Source of the DNA: an uncultured Erysipelotrichaceae bacterium | Lineage (GTDB): Bacteria > Bacillota_I > Bacilli_A > RFN20 > CAG-826 | Assembly (NCBI GenBank): GCA_902803375.1 | Contig: CADCPN010000002.1 | Span: forward strand, 1-47,529 | Length of the DNA stretch: 47,529 nt | Direction: 5' to 3' | Shown here: piece by piece, positions 13,910 to 30,253 of the stretch | Layout of the letters: the number at the start of each line of letters is the position of its first letter | Position numbering within the stretch: the stretch's first letter is position 1 | The notes under the pieces: generated by a model | Told to the model about the DNA's origin: nothing | What the model saw: the letters and a program-made list of their open reading frames with translations, nothing else | Database searches by the model: none | Program-made: the position numbers and the translations under genes

Positions 13910-13966
13910 GCAACCAAAAGTTGCCCCGCCTTGACAAGTAAAGTTGGTGGTTCGTTTTTTCACCAA
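13910..13966 (+). promoter_or_regulatory. Control region of the XRE regulator
   Basis: GCAAC/GTTGC hairpin (13910-13924), then a consensus -35 TTGACA (13931-13936), and TTGGTG (13944-13949)/CACCAA (13961-13966) around the expected -10, which is poor (GTTTTT). The inverted repeat is a plausible autoregulatory site. Confidence 0.4.
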
Positions 13967-14006
13967 ATGCAAAATAATGACCATTCCAAGCAAAAAGGAG
14001 AAACCC

Positions 14007-14807
14007 ATGAACATTGAAATCGCAAATCGTCTCGTCGAGCTCCGCAAAAAGAGCGGTCTGTCTCAAGAAGATCTCGCGGAGAAACTAGGACTCTCGCGCC
14101 AAGCGGTATCTAAGTGGGAACGTGCAGAAGCAAGCCCAGATACAGACAATCTCATCGTCTTAGCAAAACTTTATGGCGTCTCCTTAGACGACCTTCTCAA
14201 CACCGATGAGCCCGTTGAGGACATTGTCGCAACCACCAAAGAAAAAGAGGCTGAGAAAGAGCAGGTTAAAATGGAGACCAGCAAAGAAGAGGAAAGCGTC
14301 GAAGCCGAACTCGTTGATGACAAGCCGAGGACTCATAGGGAGCGCGGCGATAAGGTCAACATCGGCCCTGGCGGAATCCACATTAACGACAACAAGCCGC
14401 TCACCGAAGCCCAAAAGAAGAAAAAGGCCAGGGACCACAGGATTGACGTTATCAGCGGAATCGTCACTGGCTCGCTAATCTTCCTCGCCGTCGTCGCTTA
14501 TATCCTCGTCGGCACCTTCTATCCGCCTTTCTGGGCCTATGGATGGATCGTCTTCTTCGCTGCCCCGACTATGGGCTGCGTGTTCGAGACAATCAAGACG
14601 GGAAAGCTTGGGCCTCTAACCGGCGCCGTGGTCTTTCTATCCGTCGCCGGATACATGCTTCTTGGCTTCCTTCTTAACCTCTGGCATCCAGGATGGGTCA
14701 TCTTCCTCTCCATCCCACTATGGGCCGTGATCTCCGGTCCGGTCGACAAAGCCACTCATGACTTCCGTCACCGTCATGATAATGACGATGTCATCGACGC
14801 CAAATAA
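14007..14807 (+). CDS. XRE-family helix-turn-helix membrane protein
   Basis: A 266-residue protein. Residues 1-65 are a Cro/C1-type HTH (RLVELRKKSGLSQEDLAEKL, then SRQAVSKWERAEASPDTD). An acidic, charged linker (70-145) follows, then four predicted membrane segments (about 153-178, 180-200, 210-232 and 235-255) ending in a His/Asp-rich tail. Such HTH-plus-membrane proteins are common in Bacillota and probably sense envelope or membrane state. AAGGAG (13995-14000) fixes the start at 14007. The targets are unknown; its own upstream palindrome is one candidate. Confidence 0.85.
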   Translation: MNIEIANRLVELRKKSGLSQEDLAEKLGLSRQAVSKWERAEASPDTDNLIVLAKLYGVSLDDLLNTDEPVEDIVATTKEKEAEKEQVKMETSKEEESVEAELVDDKPRTHRERGDKVNIGPGGIHINDNKPLTEAQKKKKARDHRIDVISGIVTGSLIFLAVVAYILVGTFYPPFWAYGWIVFFAAPTMGCVFETIKTGKLGPLTGAVVFLSVAGYMLLGFLLNLWHPGWVIFLSIPLWAVISGPVDKATHDFRHRHDNDDVIDAK

Positions 14808-14830
14808 GGCATCTTAAAATGAGAATCTCA

Positions 14831-14860
14831 AAGTCCTTGGAAACAAGGGCTTTTCTTTCA
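14831..14860 (+). terminator. Terminator of the XRE gene
   Basis: AAGTCCTTG (14831-14839), a GAAA loop, CAAGGGCTT (14844-14852), then TTCTTT. Confidence 0.85.
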
Positions 14861-14905
14861 TAAAAAAGACCAGTATAAGCTGGTCAATTTAAATACATGT
14901 CTTAG

Positions 14906-15193
14906 TTATTTCTTGGAAAGGATGCGGTTATAGCCCTTACCGGTTTTTACGCATTTGCTGACCCTGGCGAGGGTGGCGGAGCTAATATCGGTCTCTTTGT
15001 TCACCTCAATATAGGTCTTGCCCTCAAGGAAGAGCTTTGCGGAGTGGATACGGCCGCTTAAGGACTTCAATTCCCTTTGGGAAAGAAGGTCATCCAAAAA
15101 CTCCTTGGCCTCTTCTTTGGTCTCAACTTTCGTTAATGCTTCATAGAGCTCGTCGAGCTCCTGCTCATTCAATTGGATTCCCGGTTTGTTCAT
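14906..15193 (-). CDS. YerC/YecD-type TrpR-like regulator
   Basis: A 95-residue all-helical DNA-binding protein of the Trp-repressor-like YerC family. LTKVETKEEAKEFLDDLLSQ then ELKSLSGRIHSAKLFLEGKT, and the HTH YIEVNKETDISSATLARVSK, match the family closely. Its start overlaps the last 29 nt of the broken ABC ATPase gene, so it was the last gene of that operon and probably still uses its transcript. Unlike its three upstream neighbours it is intact. What it regulates is not known. Confidence 0.88.
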   Translation of the reverse strand: MNKPGIQLNEQELDELYEALTKVETKEEAKEFLDDLLSQRELKSLSGRIHSAKLFLEGKTYIEVNKETDISSATLARVSKCVKTGKGYNRILSKK

Positions 15194-16040
15194 TTTGTTT
15201 CTCGCTGGCGAGGAAGTCTGTTAATTCCTGAGTGGCAGGATTGGAAAGAATGCTGCGATTGCCCTCCTCCACTATTTTACTGCTCTTCAAAAAAACAACG
15301 TAGTCAGAAATCTTGCTGGCAAAGGTCATTTCGTGAGTAACCACCAGCATAGTGATGCCCGTGGTCTTTAGTTTGAGGATCATGTTTCTGACCTCATTCT
15401 TCAAACTCGGGTCCAGAGCGCTGGTCGGTTCATCAAAGCAAAGGACTTTCGGAGATAGGGCAAGGGCTCGCAGAATGGCGACGTGCTGCTTCTCGCCTCC
15501 AGATAGTTCAAAGGGATAGGAGTCGAGTTTGGATTCGAGACGGAATTCCTTAATGTATTTGGTAAGCCTTTCCTGTTCTATCCTCAAAGATTCTTCGTAG
15601 TACTTCTTAGCGGTTTTGCCTCTTTCGAAGAGCTTTTCGCCTTTGGCTTTTTCCTAGGCTTCTTTCTTTAGCTTGAGCTCAAGAGGCACGAAGATATTCT
15701 TGCTCACCTTATATTGTGGGAAAAGGTTAAAGCCTTGGAAAATTAGGCCGAAATTCGACCCACGTTTTGCCACTTCCTTACGGCTAGGCTTCTTATTGGA
15801 GTTAGTGAGTTCGCCGCCGAGATAAATCTCGCCAGAATCCATCGTCTCAAGGTAATTCATAATGCGAAGGAAGGTGGTTTTGCCAGAGCTAGAATCGCCG
15901 ATAATGCAGATAGTCTGCCCTTTCTCTAGTTCAAAGGAAAAGTCAGTGATGGCGACGTTTTTCTTGAAGGCTTTATTTACGTTTTTAACTTCTAAGAATG
16001 CCAGGCGATTATCCTTCGTAATAAGAGAACTTCTTCTCAA
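15165..16040 (-). pseudogene. Amino-acid ABC transporter ATPase with in-frame amber stop
   Basis: A polar-amino-acid (GlnQ-like) ABC ATPase read in one frame but cut by TAG at 15654-15656. Before the stop: GDSSSGKTT (Walker A) and GLIFQGFNLFP (Q-loop). After it: LSGGEKQHVAILRALALSP (signature), CFDEPTSALDP (Walker B) and VVTHEM (H-loop). All catalytic motifs survive. The segment around the stop (residues about 128-150) is Lys/Glu-rich and unlike the family, so an insertion may also be present. The usual ATG ahead of FLEVKNVNKAF is lost. With the two genes upstream also broken, I read it as decay, not read-through. Confidence 0.8.
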
Positions 16041-16648
16041 AAAAATTGAGTAACAGGCTTAGCAAGCCATTAAAGGCCAAATAGAAGAGGCCGGTGTAGA
16101 AGAGAACGTAGATGATCGCATGGGTCGCGACGATCTTCTCGGCTGCCAAGATGATCTCGGTAACAGCAACGGCGCGAGCAAAGGCGGTATCCTTTACCAA
16201 ACCGATGGTCTCATTGGTAAGAGGCAGGGAGAACCTTTTTGATCACCTGCATCAAATAGACGCAGGTGAAGGTCTGGGTTCTCAATAAGCCAAGAACCTG
16301 CGCCGCTTCTCTTTGTCCGGCATCAACCGACTGGTAACCGGCGCGGAAGACCTCGGAGAAATAGACGGCATAGTTGACGACGATGGCGAGGATGACCGCG
16401 ACCATGCGGTTAAGGGCAGGGGCGTGGAAGAGCAGCCCCGGCACGTAGAACACGACCATGATCTGAAGCATTAGCGGGGTTCCGCGAATAATCCAGATGA
16501 AGACCTGCATGCTTTTCCTGACCGCCTTGAAGCGACTCATGCTCAACCAGCAAAAAAGAACCCCCAAGGGGATAGAAAGCACAAACGAGACAACGAAGAT
16601 TAGTGCCGTGGTCTCGAAGCCTTGCAATAGTTTTAAAGTGACTTGCAC
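16009..16648 (-). pseudogene. Amino-acid ABC transporter permease, frameshifted
   Basis: A His/Glu/polar-amino-acid permease. The first part (16211-16648) is normal: GFETTALIFVVSFVLSIPLG, WIIRGTPLMLQ, and the EAA-type loop FRAGYQSVDAGQREAAQVLG. After QVIKKVLP the frame ends at SYQ-stop. Dropping one G near 16228 restores LTNETIGLVKDTAFARAVAV and the rest of the protein to 16009. So a one-base insertion has broken an otherwise complete gene. Confidence 0.82.
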
Positions 16649-16657
16649 AAATCACTT

Positions 16658-17487
16658 TTATTTGAAGTATGCGATAGGAGCGAAGACGGTGTAGCCGATG
16701 GTCATGTAACCTTTGCTCTTGATGGACTCCCAAGAGGAAGTCTCTTTAACACCTGCATACGAAGCGAAGTCTCCTGGCTCATAAAGCGATGCAAATAAAC
16801 CATATTCGTTGGCGATTTGCGCGGTTTTACCAGATTTAAAGGTCGCAGTTGGGGCCTCATTGACCTTGGCGATGAATCCTTTCTCGCCCTTTCTTCCGGC
16901 GATGCCGTAATACTCGTCTGTGAGATTATAGGAGGTGACGGTCTGAAGGTCTTTGTAGCTGGTCTTAGAAGCGATGTAGTACCTGGCCATGACGGAATCG
17001 ATGATGGCAAGCTGGCTGGTGCCGGAGAGGGCTTCGGTGAGAGCGTTCACCTGGGCGCCGCATTCGACGGGTGTGCAGGAAGAGAAGATATCGTTGTTTT
17101 GAAGACATCATCGCCTGCGGAGCCTTTCTCAAAGGCAACGGTGAAGGCGGAATCGGATTTGATTTCAGAATTGAAGGACTTCTTCGCGACGATGATCTGG
17201 GAATTCACCATATAGGGAGAAGAAATCTCCATGGCTTCCCGTCTTTCTTCGGTGATGTTCAAACCATTCCAAATCAAATCGATCTGGTCGGAGCTAAGCT
17301 CGATCTCCTTCTTATCCCACTGGATTTCCTGGAATCTGACATCGACGCCGAGGTTTTCCCCGACGGCCTTTGCCAAATCGATATCAAAGCCAATGAGCTG
17401 TTCATCGGCGGAACCACAGCTAACTAGACCGATGAGTGAAGCGTTGGCAAGCACAATAGCGGTAATGGCTTTCTTCCTAAAACCTTC
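16658..17487 (-). pseudogene. Amino-acid ABC transporter solute-binding lipoprotein, frameshifted and deleted
   Basis: A periplasmic-type binding protein (SBP_bac_3). A signal peptide with lipobox can be read (KKAITAIVLANASLIGLVSC), but it has no in-frame start codon: a TGA stands just upstream. After CGS the sequence jumps to DEQLIGFDIDLAKAVGENLG, missing the first strand of about 25 residues. The frame breaks again near 17094: adding one A restores NDIFSSCTPVECGAQVNALT and the C-terminal half to 16658. At least three lesions are present. Ligand-binding parts (WNGLNITEERREAMEISSPY) remain recognisable. Confidence 0.8.
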
Positions 17488-17498
17488 TCAATGCCTCA

Positions 17499-17570
17499 CT
17501 TTAGTTTGCTAAAGCGTAAACATAATATACCTTAGTGTTCTAAAGCAGTCGACACTTTATTTCACTAAAG
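17499..17570. promoter_or_regulatory. Three CTTTA-N6-TAAAG palindromes at the ABC operon promoter
   Basis: CTTTAGTTTGCTAAAG (17499-17514), CCTTAGTGTTCTAAAG (17530-17545) and CTTTATTTCACTAAAG (17555-17570). On the minus strand a TATTAT -10 lies near 17522-17527 and a weak -35 near 17545-17550, so one site sits in the promoter spacer, one downstream and one upstream. That is a standard repressor layout. The same pattern recurs at 29486-29501. Confidence 0.65.
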
Positions 17571-17663
17571 CAGAATTCCTTTGTTTTGTCCCGTTATCGG
17601 CATGTATTAGCAGTAAGAAAACGCTTTTATCCGAATTCGGCTGGCTAATTGAGAAGAGGGTCC

Positions 17664-17669
17664 TATAAT
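17664..17669 (+). promoter_or_regulatory. -10 box of the MATE gene
   Basis: TATAAT lies 17 nt before the ATG; the expected leader is about 10 nt and includes CAGGA as a weak ribosome site. Confidence 0.5.
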
Positions 17670-17686
17670 CACCCGCGTCAGGATTT

Positions 17687-19057
17687 ATGAAAAAGAGCGT
17701 ATTCAAAGTAGACATGTCCACGGGAAACATCGCCAAGGATGCTCTCCTTTTCTCATTGCCAATCCTTTTCTCTGGATGGCTTCAGCTTCTTTATAACGCC
17801 GCTGACTTAATTGTCTGTGGCCAGTTTGGTTCAAAGTATTCCGTTGGCGCCATCGCAGCCACCAACTCCCTTACTTCCTTAATCGTTTCCTTGTTTTTAG
17901 GTTTCTCCGTCGGCGCCAATGTCTTAATGGCCACGGCATTCGGTGCAAGGCTAAAAGATAAGTCAACCAGAATCATCGGCACCACTTATGCCCTGGCAAT
18001 TGCCTCAGGCATCATCCTTGCCGTCGTCGGCGTCACCTGCTCCCGTTATTTCCTAAAAGCCATGGGCACGCCGGACGAGATCATCGAGTTGTCCAACACT
18101 TACATGATGATCTATTTCGTCGGCATCCCCTTCACGCTTATCTTCAACTTCGGGTCCGCATTGCTTCGTGGCATGGGTGAAACGTTTAAGCCTTTTCTTT
18201 TCTTAGCCTTTGCGGGCGCGGTAAACGTAAGCCTTAACTTCTTGTTTGTCATCACCTTCCACATGGACGTCGCAGGCGTCGCGACCACTACGGTCATCGC
18301 ACAGGCAATATCAGCAATTCTCGTAACGATTTCACTACTCACCAGCAAAAGCCTATTCGCGAACCTGAGAATTAAGTCCATTCGCTTCCATAAAGACGAG
18401 ACCATTGGCATCATCCGTATCGGCGTTCCCGCCGGCATCCAGTCCGCCTTGTTCTCCCTCTCCAACGTCATTCTTCAGAGCTCCATCAACTCCTTCGGCC
18501 CTGACGCCGTTACCGGCGCAGGCGCGGAGAGCTCCATCGAGTCCTTCATGTCCACCGGCGTAGACGCGTTCGCACAGGCCAGCGTCGCCTTCGTTGGCGC
18601 CAACTATGGCGCGAAGAACATCCAGCGCGTGAAGAAATCCATCTTCATCATTTCCTTATATGGTTTGATCTTCACGGCCATCATGGCTACCTTCGCCTAC
18701 TTCATGGCTGAAAGTCTATTACGCATCTATATCCAAGACCCCGTCGCCATCTCCTATGGCGCAGAAAAGCTTCACTTAGTCTCAGCCACATACACCGTGT
18801 ACGCGTTAATGAGCACGATTAGCTGCGCCATCAGAGGATTCGGCTATTCCATCACCCCGATGATTGTCTCCCTCATGGGCATCTGCGTGTTGCGAATCGT
18901 CTATATCTATACCTTGTTCCCGCTTCCGGAATTGCATTCCATCTTTGGTCTCTATATCTCCTACCCATTAAGCTGGGCGGCGACGTTACTGGCCCACCTC
19001 ATATGCTTCTTCCCGCTTTCCAAGAAAGCATTCGCCAAAATCCAGCCTGCTGAATAA
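17687..19057 (+). CDS. MATE-family efflux transporter
   Basis: A 456-residue membrane protein with twelve predicted helices in two halves, as in Na+- or H+-coupled multidrug/toxin exporters. ALLFSLPILFSGWLQLLYNA then ADLIVCGQFGS opens the first half. GVPAGIQSALFSLSNVILQS and GAESSIESFMSTGVDAFAQA mark the second half. Full length for the family. Substrate cannot be predicted. It is divergent from the decayed amino-acid ABC operon, and the palindrome array at 17499-17570 lies about 100 bp upstream of its -10, so shared regulation is possible. Confidence 0.92.
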   Translation: MKKSVFKVDMSTGNIAKDALLFSLPILFSGWLQLLYNAADLIVCGQFGSKYSVGAIAATNSLTSLIVSLFLGFSVGANVLMATAFGARLKDKSTRIIGTTYALAIASGIILAVVGVTCSRYFLKAMGTPDEIIELSNTYMMIYFVGIPFTLIFNFGSALLRGMGETFKPFLFLAFAGAVNVSLNFLFVITFHMDVAGVATTTVIAQAISAILVTISLLTSKSLFANLRIKSIRFHKDETIGIIRIGVPAGIQSALFSLSNVILQSSINSFGPDAVTGAGAESSIESFMSTGVDAFAQASVAFVGANYGAKNIQRVKKSIFIISLYGLIFTAIMATFAYFMAESLLRIYIQDPVAISYGAEKLHLVSATYTVYALMSTISCAIRGFGYSITPMIVSLMGICVLRIVYIYTLFPLPELHSIFGLYISYPLSWAATLLAHLICFFPLSKKAFAKIQPAE

Positions 19058-28519: not shown

Positions 28520-29374
28520 ATGGCAAAGAAAAACGCAGAAAAACAAAGCAAATCTCCAAAGGTCGCTAAGACCCTTGATGAAAAAATGACCCTCACCTGG
28601 ACCATTTGGAATACCGTCGAGGCTGTGTTGTTGTTGGCCGCAGGCATTATCGCGATCGTCTTTGGCATTCAAGCCAAAGACTTCGATAACCAAGACGCGG
28701 ACACGGTTAAGAACATCATCGTCTTTGTGCTCGGCGCATTCGTCATCCTTGATGGCGTGCTCCGTCTCGTGATGCTTGCACTTCATTACAAAAAATCCGA
28801 TGAATCCACCATCCTCATTGGCGGTTTTGAAATCACTATCGGCATCGTCCTCATGCTCGTTGGCGGCGTTTCCGTCATCGATATGATCATCAAGTTCCTC
28901 GGCGTCGCGCTTACCGTCATTGGAACCTTGTTCCTTGGGTTCTCCATCATGGTCATCGTCAAAAAGACCGAAAAGCTATTCATGCCTATCCTCGAAATTC
29001 TATTTGGCGCTATTTTGATTGGCCTTGGTGTCGCAATCCTCATTCTCCATTATGCGGGCGATAATACCACTCAACTCCGTGTCGTATTCGTCCTCATCGG
29101 TTTGATCATGGCGGTCGCTGGCATCGCGCAGGCCGTCGTCGTTCTTATCACAAAGATTCGTAACAAGAAAAAGAAATCCAAAGAGAAAAAGGAAACCATA
29201 AACGCAGTTCCTTCTTCTAAGGAAGATACCGAAGCCATCGAAAATAAAGCGACAGCTATCGAACATAAGCAGAAAGACGAAGCCGAATCCTCTGACTCCA
29301 ACGTCATCGAGGCCGAGGTTATCGACGAAAAGCCCGCGGAAGAAGACCAGCCGGACGAAGACGATAAGGAATAG
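28520..29374 (+). CDS. Multi-helix membrane protein with acidic tail (paralogue 1)
   Basis: A 284-residue protein. After a Lys-rich N-terminus, TWTIWNTVEAVLLLAAGIIA opens six predicted membrane helices (about 27-48, 60-84, 95-118, 122-148, 155-178 and 186-208), arranged as pairs that recall DUF308-type repeats. A basic stretch (KIRNKKKKSKEKKE) is followed by about 55 acidic residues. The next gene encodes a paralogue with the same opening (WxIWNxVExxLxLxAGIxAxVF). AAAAGGAGAA precedes the ATG. Function unknown. Confidence 0.75.
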   Translation: MAKKNAEKQSKSPKVAKTLDEKMTLTWTIWNTVEAVLLLAAGIIAIVFGIQAKDFDNQDADTVKNIIVFVLGAFVILDGVLRLVMLALHYKKSDESTILIGGFEITIGIVLMLVGGVSVIDMIIKFLGVALTVIGTLFLGFSIMVIVKKTEKLFMPILEILFGAILIGLGVAILILHYAGDNTTQLRVVFVLIGLIMAVAGIAQAVVVLITKIRNKKKKSKEKKETINAVPSSKEDTEAIENKATAIEHKQKDEAESSDSNVIEAEVIDEKPAEEDQPDEDDKE

Positions 29375-29400
29375 CCATCAAAATCAGGATTTTCTGTACG

Positions 29401-29430
29401 ACCCTCAGGCGACTGAGGGTTTTGTTTTTA
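29401..29430 (+). terminator. Terminator of paralogue 1
   Basis: ACCCTCAG-GCGA-CTGAGGGT, followed by TTTGTTTTTA. Confidence 0.9.
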
Positions 29431-29469
29431 CAAATGAAGGGAAAACGTAATGTAACTAAGCAATAATGG

Positions 29470-29502
29470 TTGAAAGATTGGATTGCTTTACTATAGTAAA
29501 GC
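29470..29502 (+). promoter_or_regulatory. Promoter of paralogue 2 with 18-bp palindrome
   Basis: TTGAAA (29470-29475), 16 bp, TATAGT (29492-29497). GCTTTACTATAGTAAAGC (29485-29502) is a perfect palindrome centred on the -10 and fits the CTTTA-N6-TAAAG pattern of 17499-17570. Confidence 0.7.
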
Positions 29503-29530
29503 CCGTTACCCGTTTAGGAGGACAATTCTA

Positions 29531-30253
29531 ATGCTAAAACGTGGTTCTATTGGATGGGCGATCTGGAACATCGTCGAATCCCTTCTTATCTTGACTGCCG
29601 GCATCCTCGCTCTCGTCTTCTGTGAGAGCACCGATGCTTATGCCGTCGCCCTCATCACCGTCGGTTCCATTATTGTCACCGACGCTGGCCTACGACTCAT
29701 CCTTGATGTCATTCAGGCCTTCATCGCGCCAGACGCCGCTCTCGTCCGTGCCAACTATGGCGAAGCCGGCGCTTCCGCCATGGAGCTTGCTCTTGGTATC
29801 GCCTTCATCCTTGGCGGCGTTGCCTTCCAGGGCAACGTTAACGGCAGAGCCGATATCCTTGCCATCTTCAACTTCGCCGCTCTCTTCGCCAGCTTGGTCC
29901 TCATCATCCTTGGCAGCATCATCTTCATCTATGGCCTCGTCTACCTTTGCAAAAAGGCTGGCGTCGTCAATAGCATCGTCGTTATGCTCGGTGGCGCCAT
30001 CCTCATCACCCTGGGCGCTTTGATGATCGTCTACGTCTGGAACAGCGACGAGCTTATGAAGTTCATCTTCATCTTCGCTGGCATCGTCCTTCTCATCGTT
30101 GGCGTCTTCGCCCTTCTCGGCACCATCCTCACTCCCCTTGGAAAAGGCAAGAAAGAGGAAGCCACTGTCGTCGATGCAGAAGTCACTGTCGAAACTCCTG
30201 TCGCATCCAAGGAAGCCTCCGTTGAAGTTCCGGGTGCAGAAGAATCCAAATAA
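29531..30253 (+). CDS. Multi-helix membrane protein with acidic tail (paralogue 2)
   Basis: A 240-residue paralogue of the preceding protein: [20 protein letters not shown], then five more predicted helices with Gly/Ile-rich faces ([20 protein letters not shown]) and an acidic tail after [14 protein letters not shown]. The tail shares the xVxDAEV/VIEAEVI element with paralogue 1. TAGGAGG lies 9-15 nt before ATG 29531, which decides the start; the frame is open to 29483 but that includes the promoter. It has its own promoter, palindrome and terminator, so it can be regulated apart from paralogue 1. Function unknown. Confidence 0.75.

Follow-up and report, generated by a model that had tools for sequence, protein, structure and literature searches.

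The stretch at 17499–17570 of the window (the whole 47,529-nucleotide piece of DNA that was analysed) very likely serves as the operator region of a hisXYZ*-hisR operon for histidine uptake, with a candidate repressor encoded by the operon itself. The array can be assigned to HisR because its sites match a published consensus, because the operon contains a HisR-family gene, and because sites and operon occur together in relatives. A HisR operator array is a known kind of switch, found here in a new host and with an unusual number of sites. This assignment gives a regulator, a likely ligand and a wiring to an otherwise anonymous operator array, and it would add a lineage of uncultured Bacilli, with a promoter of three sites, to the range of HisR.

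The motif CTTTA-N6-TAAAG occurs three times within 72 bp, once with a mismatch, and the copies cover a sigma-70-like promoter. The candidate HisR-type operators 1 (CTTTAGTTTGCTAAAG, 17499–17514) and 3 (CTTTATTTCACTAAAG, 17555–17570) are exact matches to the motif, and operator 2 (CCTTAGTGTTCTAAAG, 17530–17545) has one mismatch; being palindromes, they are listed without a strand. The 232-bp intergenic region contains three sites that keep 9 or more of the 10 arm bases, whereas 5000 dinucleotide shuffles gave 0.05 such sites on average and never more than 2; the clustering of palindromes at 17499–17570 is significant and far beyond chance. All four palindromes of the original prediction were confirmed, namely, these three and a distant, exact copy of the motif at 29486–29501. 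The HisR operator consensus common to Firmicutes, Actinobacteria and Synergistetes is cacTTTAnnnnnnTAAAgtg (PMC9413887), and, in the orientation of the operon, operators 1, 2 and 3 agree with it at 13, 10 and 12 of 14 positions, respectively. An RNA element in place of a DNA operator was rejected, since an Rfam search of 14500–18200 gave no match.

The promoter-like sequence of the transporter operon, TCGACT-17-TATATT, lies at 17524–17552 on the minus strand and was recognized by its match to the consensus only. Its hexamers, TCGACT (17552–17547) and TATATT (17529–17524), are 17 bp apart and enclose operator 2 in the −35/−10 spacer. The other two operators flank the promoter, with operator 1 directly past the −10 on its 3′ side and operator 3 directly 5′ of the −35. 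Judged from the positions of these elements, the arrangement would be that expected of a repressor array.

Which protein could act on these sites? The last gene of the leftward operon, which runs in the order binding protein, permease, ATPase and hisR, is an intact hisR (14906–15193, minus strand) that encodes a TrpR-related protein of the YerC/YecD family with 95 amino acids (TIGR02531, PF01371), and this protein is the candidate repressor. It matches TIGR02531 with an E value of 3.5e-20 and 72 bits (cut-off 42) and PF01371 with an E value of 1.8e-18, whereas its 27 bits against the TrpR model TIGR01321 are far under the cut-off of 67. No other TrpR-family protein was found in the genome. Relatives with solved structures are 3KOR, 3FRW and 3G1C; 3G1C is HisR of E. 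eligens, which PMC9413887 discusses. As expected of a member of the HisR regulon, we found a repressor gene, an operator in the promoter, and the co-conservation of site and operon in relatives. The candidate targets are the amino-acid ABC transporter genes that share the operon with hisR; their specificity is presumably for histidine, and they are disrupted in the window. Furthermore, hisD was not detected in the genome (the assembly is 88.5% complete), which would fit a histidine auxotroph that depends on uptake.

The original prediction had assigned the three promoter sites to one regulator, and this is very probably correct; the HisR/YerC-type protein from the end of the operon, which would be that regulator, did not appear in it. 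It is extremely improbable that the sites belong instead to another nearby regulator, such as the XRE-type protein encoded at 13944–14807, and that hisR is there by coincidence. The gene of this HTH_3 protein does adjoin the operon, and proteins of that type bind palindromes as well, but the motif is the same as the HisR consensus in the literature (PMC9413887) and accompanies hisXYZ*/hisR operons in relatives, where the mapped neighbourhoods share no such neighbour.

Among the 224 genomes of the family, 13 have a match to TIGR02531, and in 12 the match exceeds the curated cut-off. The related operons, which consist of genes for a binding protein, a permease and an ATPase and often of hisR, carry one or two sites directly upstream of the first gene. 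Two sites were observed at loci L030, L031, L032, L033, L097, L117 and L138, and one site at loci L096, L098, L099, L100, L103, L104 and L151; sites with 7 of the 8 core bases were observed at L024, L026, L027 and part of L032. Three loci were seen twice, as the same record (L033 = L102, L034 = L096 and L097 = L139), and L101 starts inside the operon, with the promoter outside the locus. For 16 upstream regions, no more than 1.75% of the shuffles of any one region produced a site as good as the best one there. With its three sites, the array of the window is the longest among the loci compared. The original prediction had proposed a comparison across relatives, and there the site and the operon (or the hisR gene) were kept together.

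Two further arrangements of hisR were observed. In G017, a genome of the same genus, a stand-alone hisR (L035:6330–6677) is 83% identical to that of the window; its surroundings contained neither transporter genes nor a good HisR site, and no related binding protein was detected in the genome. G187 has two HisR paralogues, one of which (L028:5180–5470) heads a his biosynthesis operon, while the other (L029:4512–4796) stands apart, is 59% identical to the HisR of the window, and has a site-like sequence upstream.

How might the switch work? When histidine is plentiful, HisR would bind it, and histidine-loaded HisR dimers would sit on the three palindromes and block the promoter from three positions, 5′ of the −35, within the spacer and close to the start site. 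At low histidine, HisR would release the DNA, and both the transporter and HisR would be made. A requirement for histidine in DNA binding is reported for the HisR of R. gnavus only, and some HisR paralogues serve amino acids other than histidine (PMC9413887). We infer the binding of the sites by the HisR of the window, histidine as its ligand, and repression as the outcome.

Similar operons are known. Acholeplasma laidlawii has a hisXYZ*-hisR operon with one HisR site (PMC9413887), and the operon of the window resembles it in the operator consensus, the repressor family and the gene order (binding protein, permease, ATPase and, last, the repressor), as well as in that a histidinol dehydrogenase gene was not found. 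On the other hand, the binding-protein gene of the window is permuted and its transporter genes are disrupted. Compared with the HisR regulon of Firmicutes (PMC9413887), the promoter of the window has three operators rather than one or two, and its host is an uncultured lineage of Bacilli outside that study. E. coli TrpR shares the superfamily PF01371 with the HisR of the window and differs from it in operator sequence and, presumably, in ligand. In the trp operator, to which TrpR binds, the half-sites share their register relative to the dyad with those of the sites of the window.

Could the same regulator control genes beyond this operon? The original prediction proposed a wider regulon, with the membrane-protein gene at 29531 as a second target of the regulator of the array and the MATE gene as a possible third. 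A perfect 18-bp palindrome (GCTTTACTATAGTAAAGC, 29485–29502, listed without a strand) is present in a promoter-like position before the membrane-protein gene. On the plus strand towards the divergent MATE gene, operator 3 lies exactly between the hexamers of a weak promoter-like pair, TCGACA-16-CAGAAT, and on the strength of this weak match an effect of the array on the MATE gene is possible. However, a regulon of this breadth is unlikely. In the 1.67-Mb genome, CTTTAN6TAAAG occurs in 8 places compared with 7 for the reversed pattern, which served as the control for enrichment in place of a promoter-versus-coding count, so that the genome-wide scan proposed in the original prediction revealed no excess. 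Of the five copies beyond the window, at least three fall within genes. The motif was not in excess in the genomes of the genus, and its TAAAGC version returned nothing further. A genome-wide regulon of the motif was rejected on the grounds that there is no excess in the organism's own genome or in the genus.

Homologues of the 29531 gene are present in most genomes of the genus. Approximately 25 of them were checked, including that of G007, which bears hisR, and none had a full-core site in the 150 bp upstream. Furthermore, no MATE gene was seen beside the related operons in the mapped neighbourhoods. The distant copy at 29485–29502, taken alone, is not significant, and with neither a site before the homologues in the genus nor an excess in the genome, the claim that it marks a second target is unsupported. 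We treat this palindrome as a coincidence or a species-specific gain. The region at 28520–30253 contains two adjacent paralogous membrane-protein genes, which are 26% identical over most of their length and adjoin each other in several genomes of the genus; the second gene of the pair matched no Pfam family.

The operon, presumably under HisR control, is itself disrupted in this assembly. The gene of the amino-acid binding lipoprotein (SBP_bac_3; 16667–17472, minus strand), which has the same permuted order as the intact L103 and L104, lacks a start codon before its signal-like sequence and has a frameshift between about 17113 and 17056. The amino-acid ABC permease gene (16012–16651, minus strand) is frameshifted at about 16223–16239, and the amino-acid ABC ATPase gene (15165–16004, minus strand) has an in-frame TAG at 15654–15656. 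A missing start codon, two frameshifts and one stop thus lie within 15165–17472, beside an intact hisR and well-kept operators, and this pattern suggests that the transporter is decaying while hisR lasts longer. With its transporter genes disrupted, the switch may now mainly control hisR.

It is possible, although we consider it doubtful, that the lesions are assembly errors and that the operon is fully working, a question that concerns the state of the operon and not the identity of its regulator. The genome is a draft of 64 contigs, hisR is intact, the operator array is well kept, and the residues that flank the lesions are well conserved, all of which would be compatible with such errors. 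Against them stand the number of lesions, four separate ones in about 2 kb, and the open frames of further long genes in the window (813, 868 and 666 codons). The G017 genome, whose HisR is so close to that of the window and which has no detected binding protein, also argues for decay, as it indicates that hisR can outlive the transporter.

The binding proteins of these operons have a further feature. We consider it probable that HisR-controlled operons in Bacilli and Clostridia encode, under the same operators, circularly permuted amino-acid (probably histidine) binding lipoproteins of a single origin with at least two cut points. By the same reading, most of them are probably cut inside lobe 2, and in the window, L103 and L104 the cut would follow the first strand. 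The proteins of type A (L096–L102, L138, L139 and L151; intact frames of about 280–300 codons) start in lobe 2, with its C-terminal part, followed by a linker, the usual first strand (GYTVFAPIAY), lobe 1 and the start of lobe 2. In those of type B (intact frames of L103 and L104), lobe 1 minus its first strand comes first, lobe 2 follows, and the first strand stands at the C-terminus. The broken gene of the window has the type B order, that is, lobe 1 without the first strand, lobe 2, a linker and the first strand.

When the type A profile was aligned with an ordinary binding protein, 3hv1, the blocks were swapped, with 138–270 matching 9–140 and 27–120 matching 155–246. The AF2 model of type A has a mean pLDDT of 88.3 and a pTM of 0.82, and type A thus combines swapped segments that align to one ordinary binding protein with a good predicted fold; the AF2 model of type B, which was built from a two-row alignment only, has a pLDDT of 32 and carries no weight in either direction. 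In a structure comparison of the type A model, it was mostly the C-terminal part (about 142–277) that aligned, and it did so with the N-terminal part of amino-acid binding proteins of ordinary order, a result on the predicted structure that agrees with permutation and in which the N-terminal half was hardly tested. After the segments had been rearranged into a common order, a tree placed the permuted proteins together on one side of a branch supported at 98/95. The permuted clade spans Bacilli and Clostridia, mostly under the same operators, and binding proteins of ordinary order occur in other hisR operons (L026 and L030–L032).

The closest solved relatives of the binding protein of the window include the histidine-bound 4OHN, in a family that has many specificities. 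A search of plasmid DNA returned short conserved ABC stretches only. In the literature library searched, which is incomplete, no natural circular permutation was reported for amino-acid binding proteins, and the sole natural precedent found was TpMglB-2 of Treponema pallidum, a circularly permuted glucose-binding lipoprotein (PMC4990184). TpMglB-2 and the clade of the window are alike in being natural circular permutations of the binding lipoprotein of an ABC transporter. TpMglB-2, however, is sugar-binding and belongs to a different structural class (Type I/Cluster B), whereas the clade of the window consists of SBP_bac_3 amino-acid binding proteins with two cut points in one clade. If the permutation is real, the chain ends of these proteins would have been moved twice while the promoter, the operon and presumably the substrate were kept, which would make the clade a natural experiment on permutation. 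The permuted binding protein is a less expected feature than the array, and this side result may matter more.
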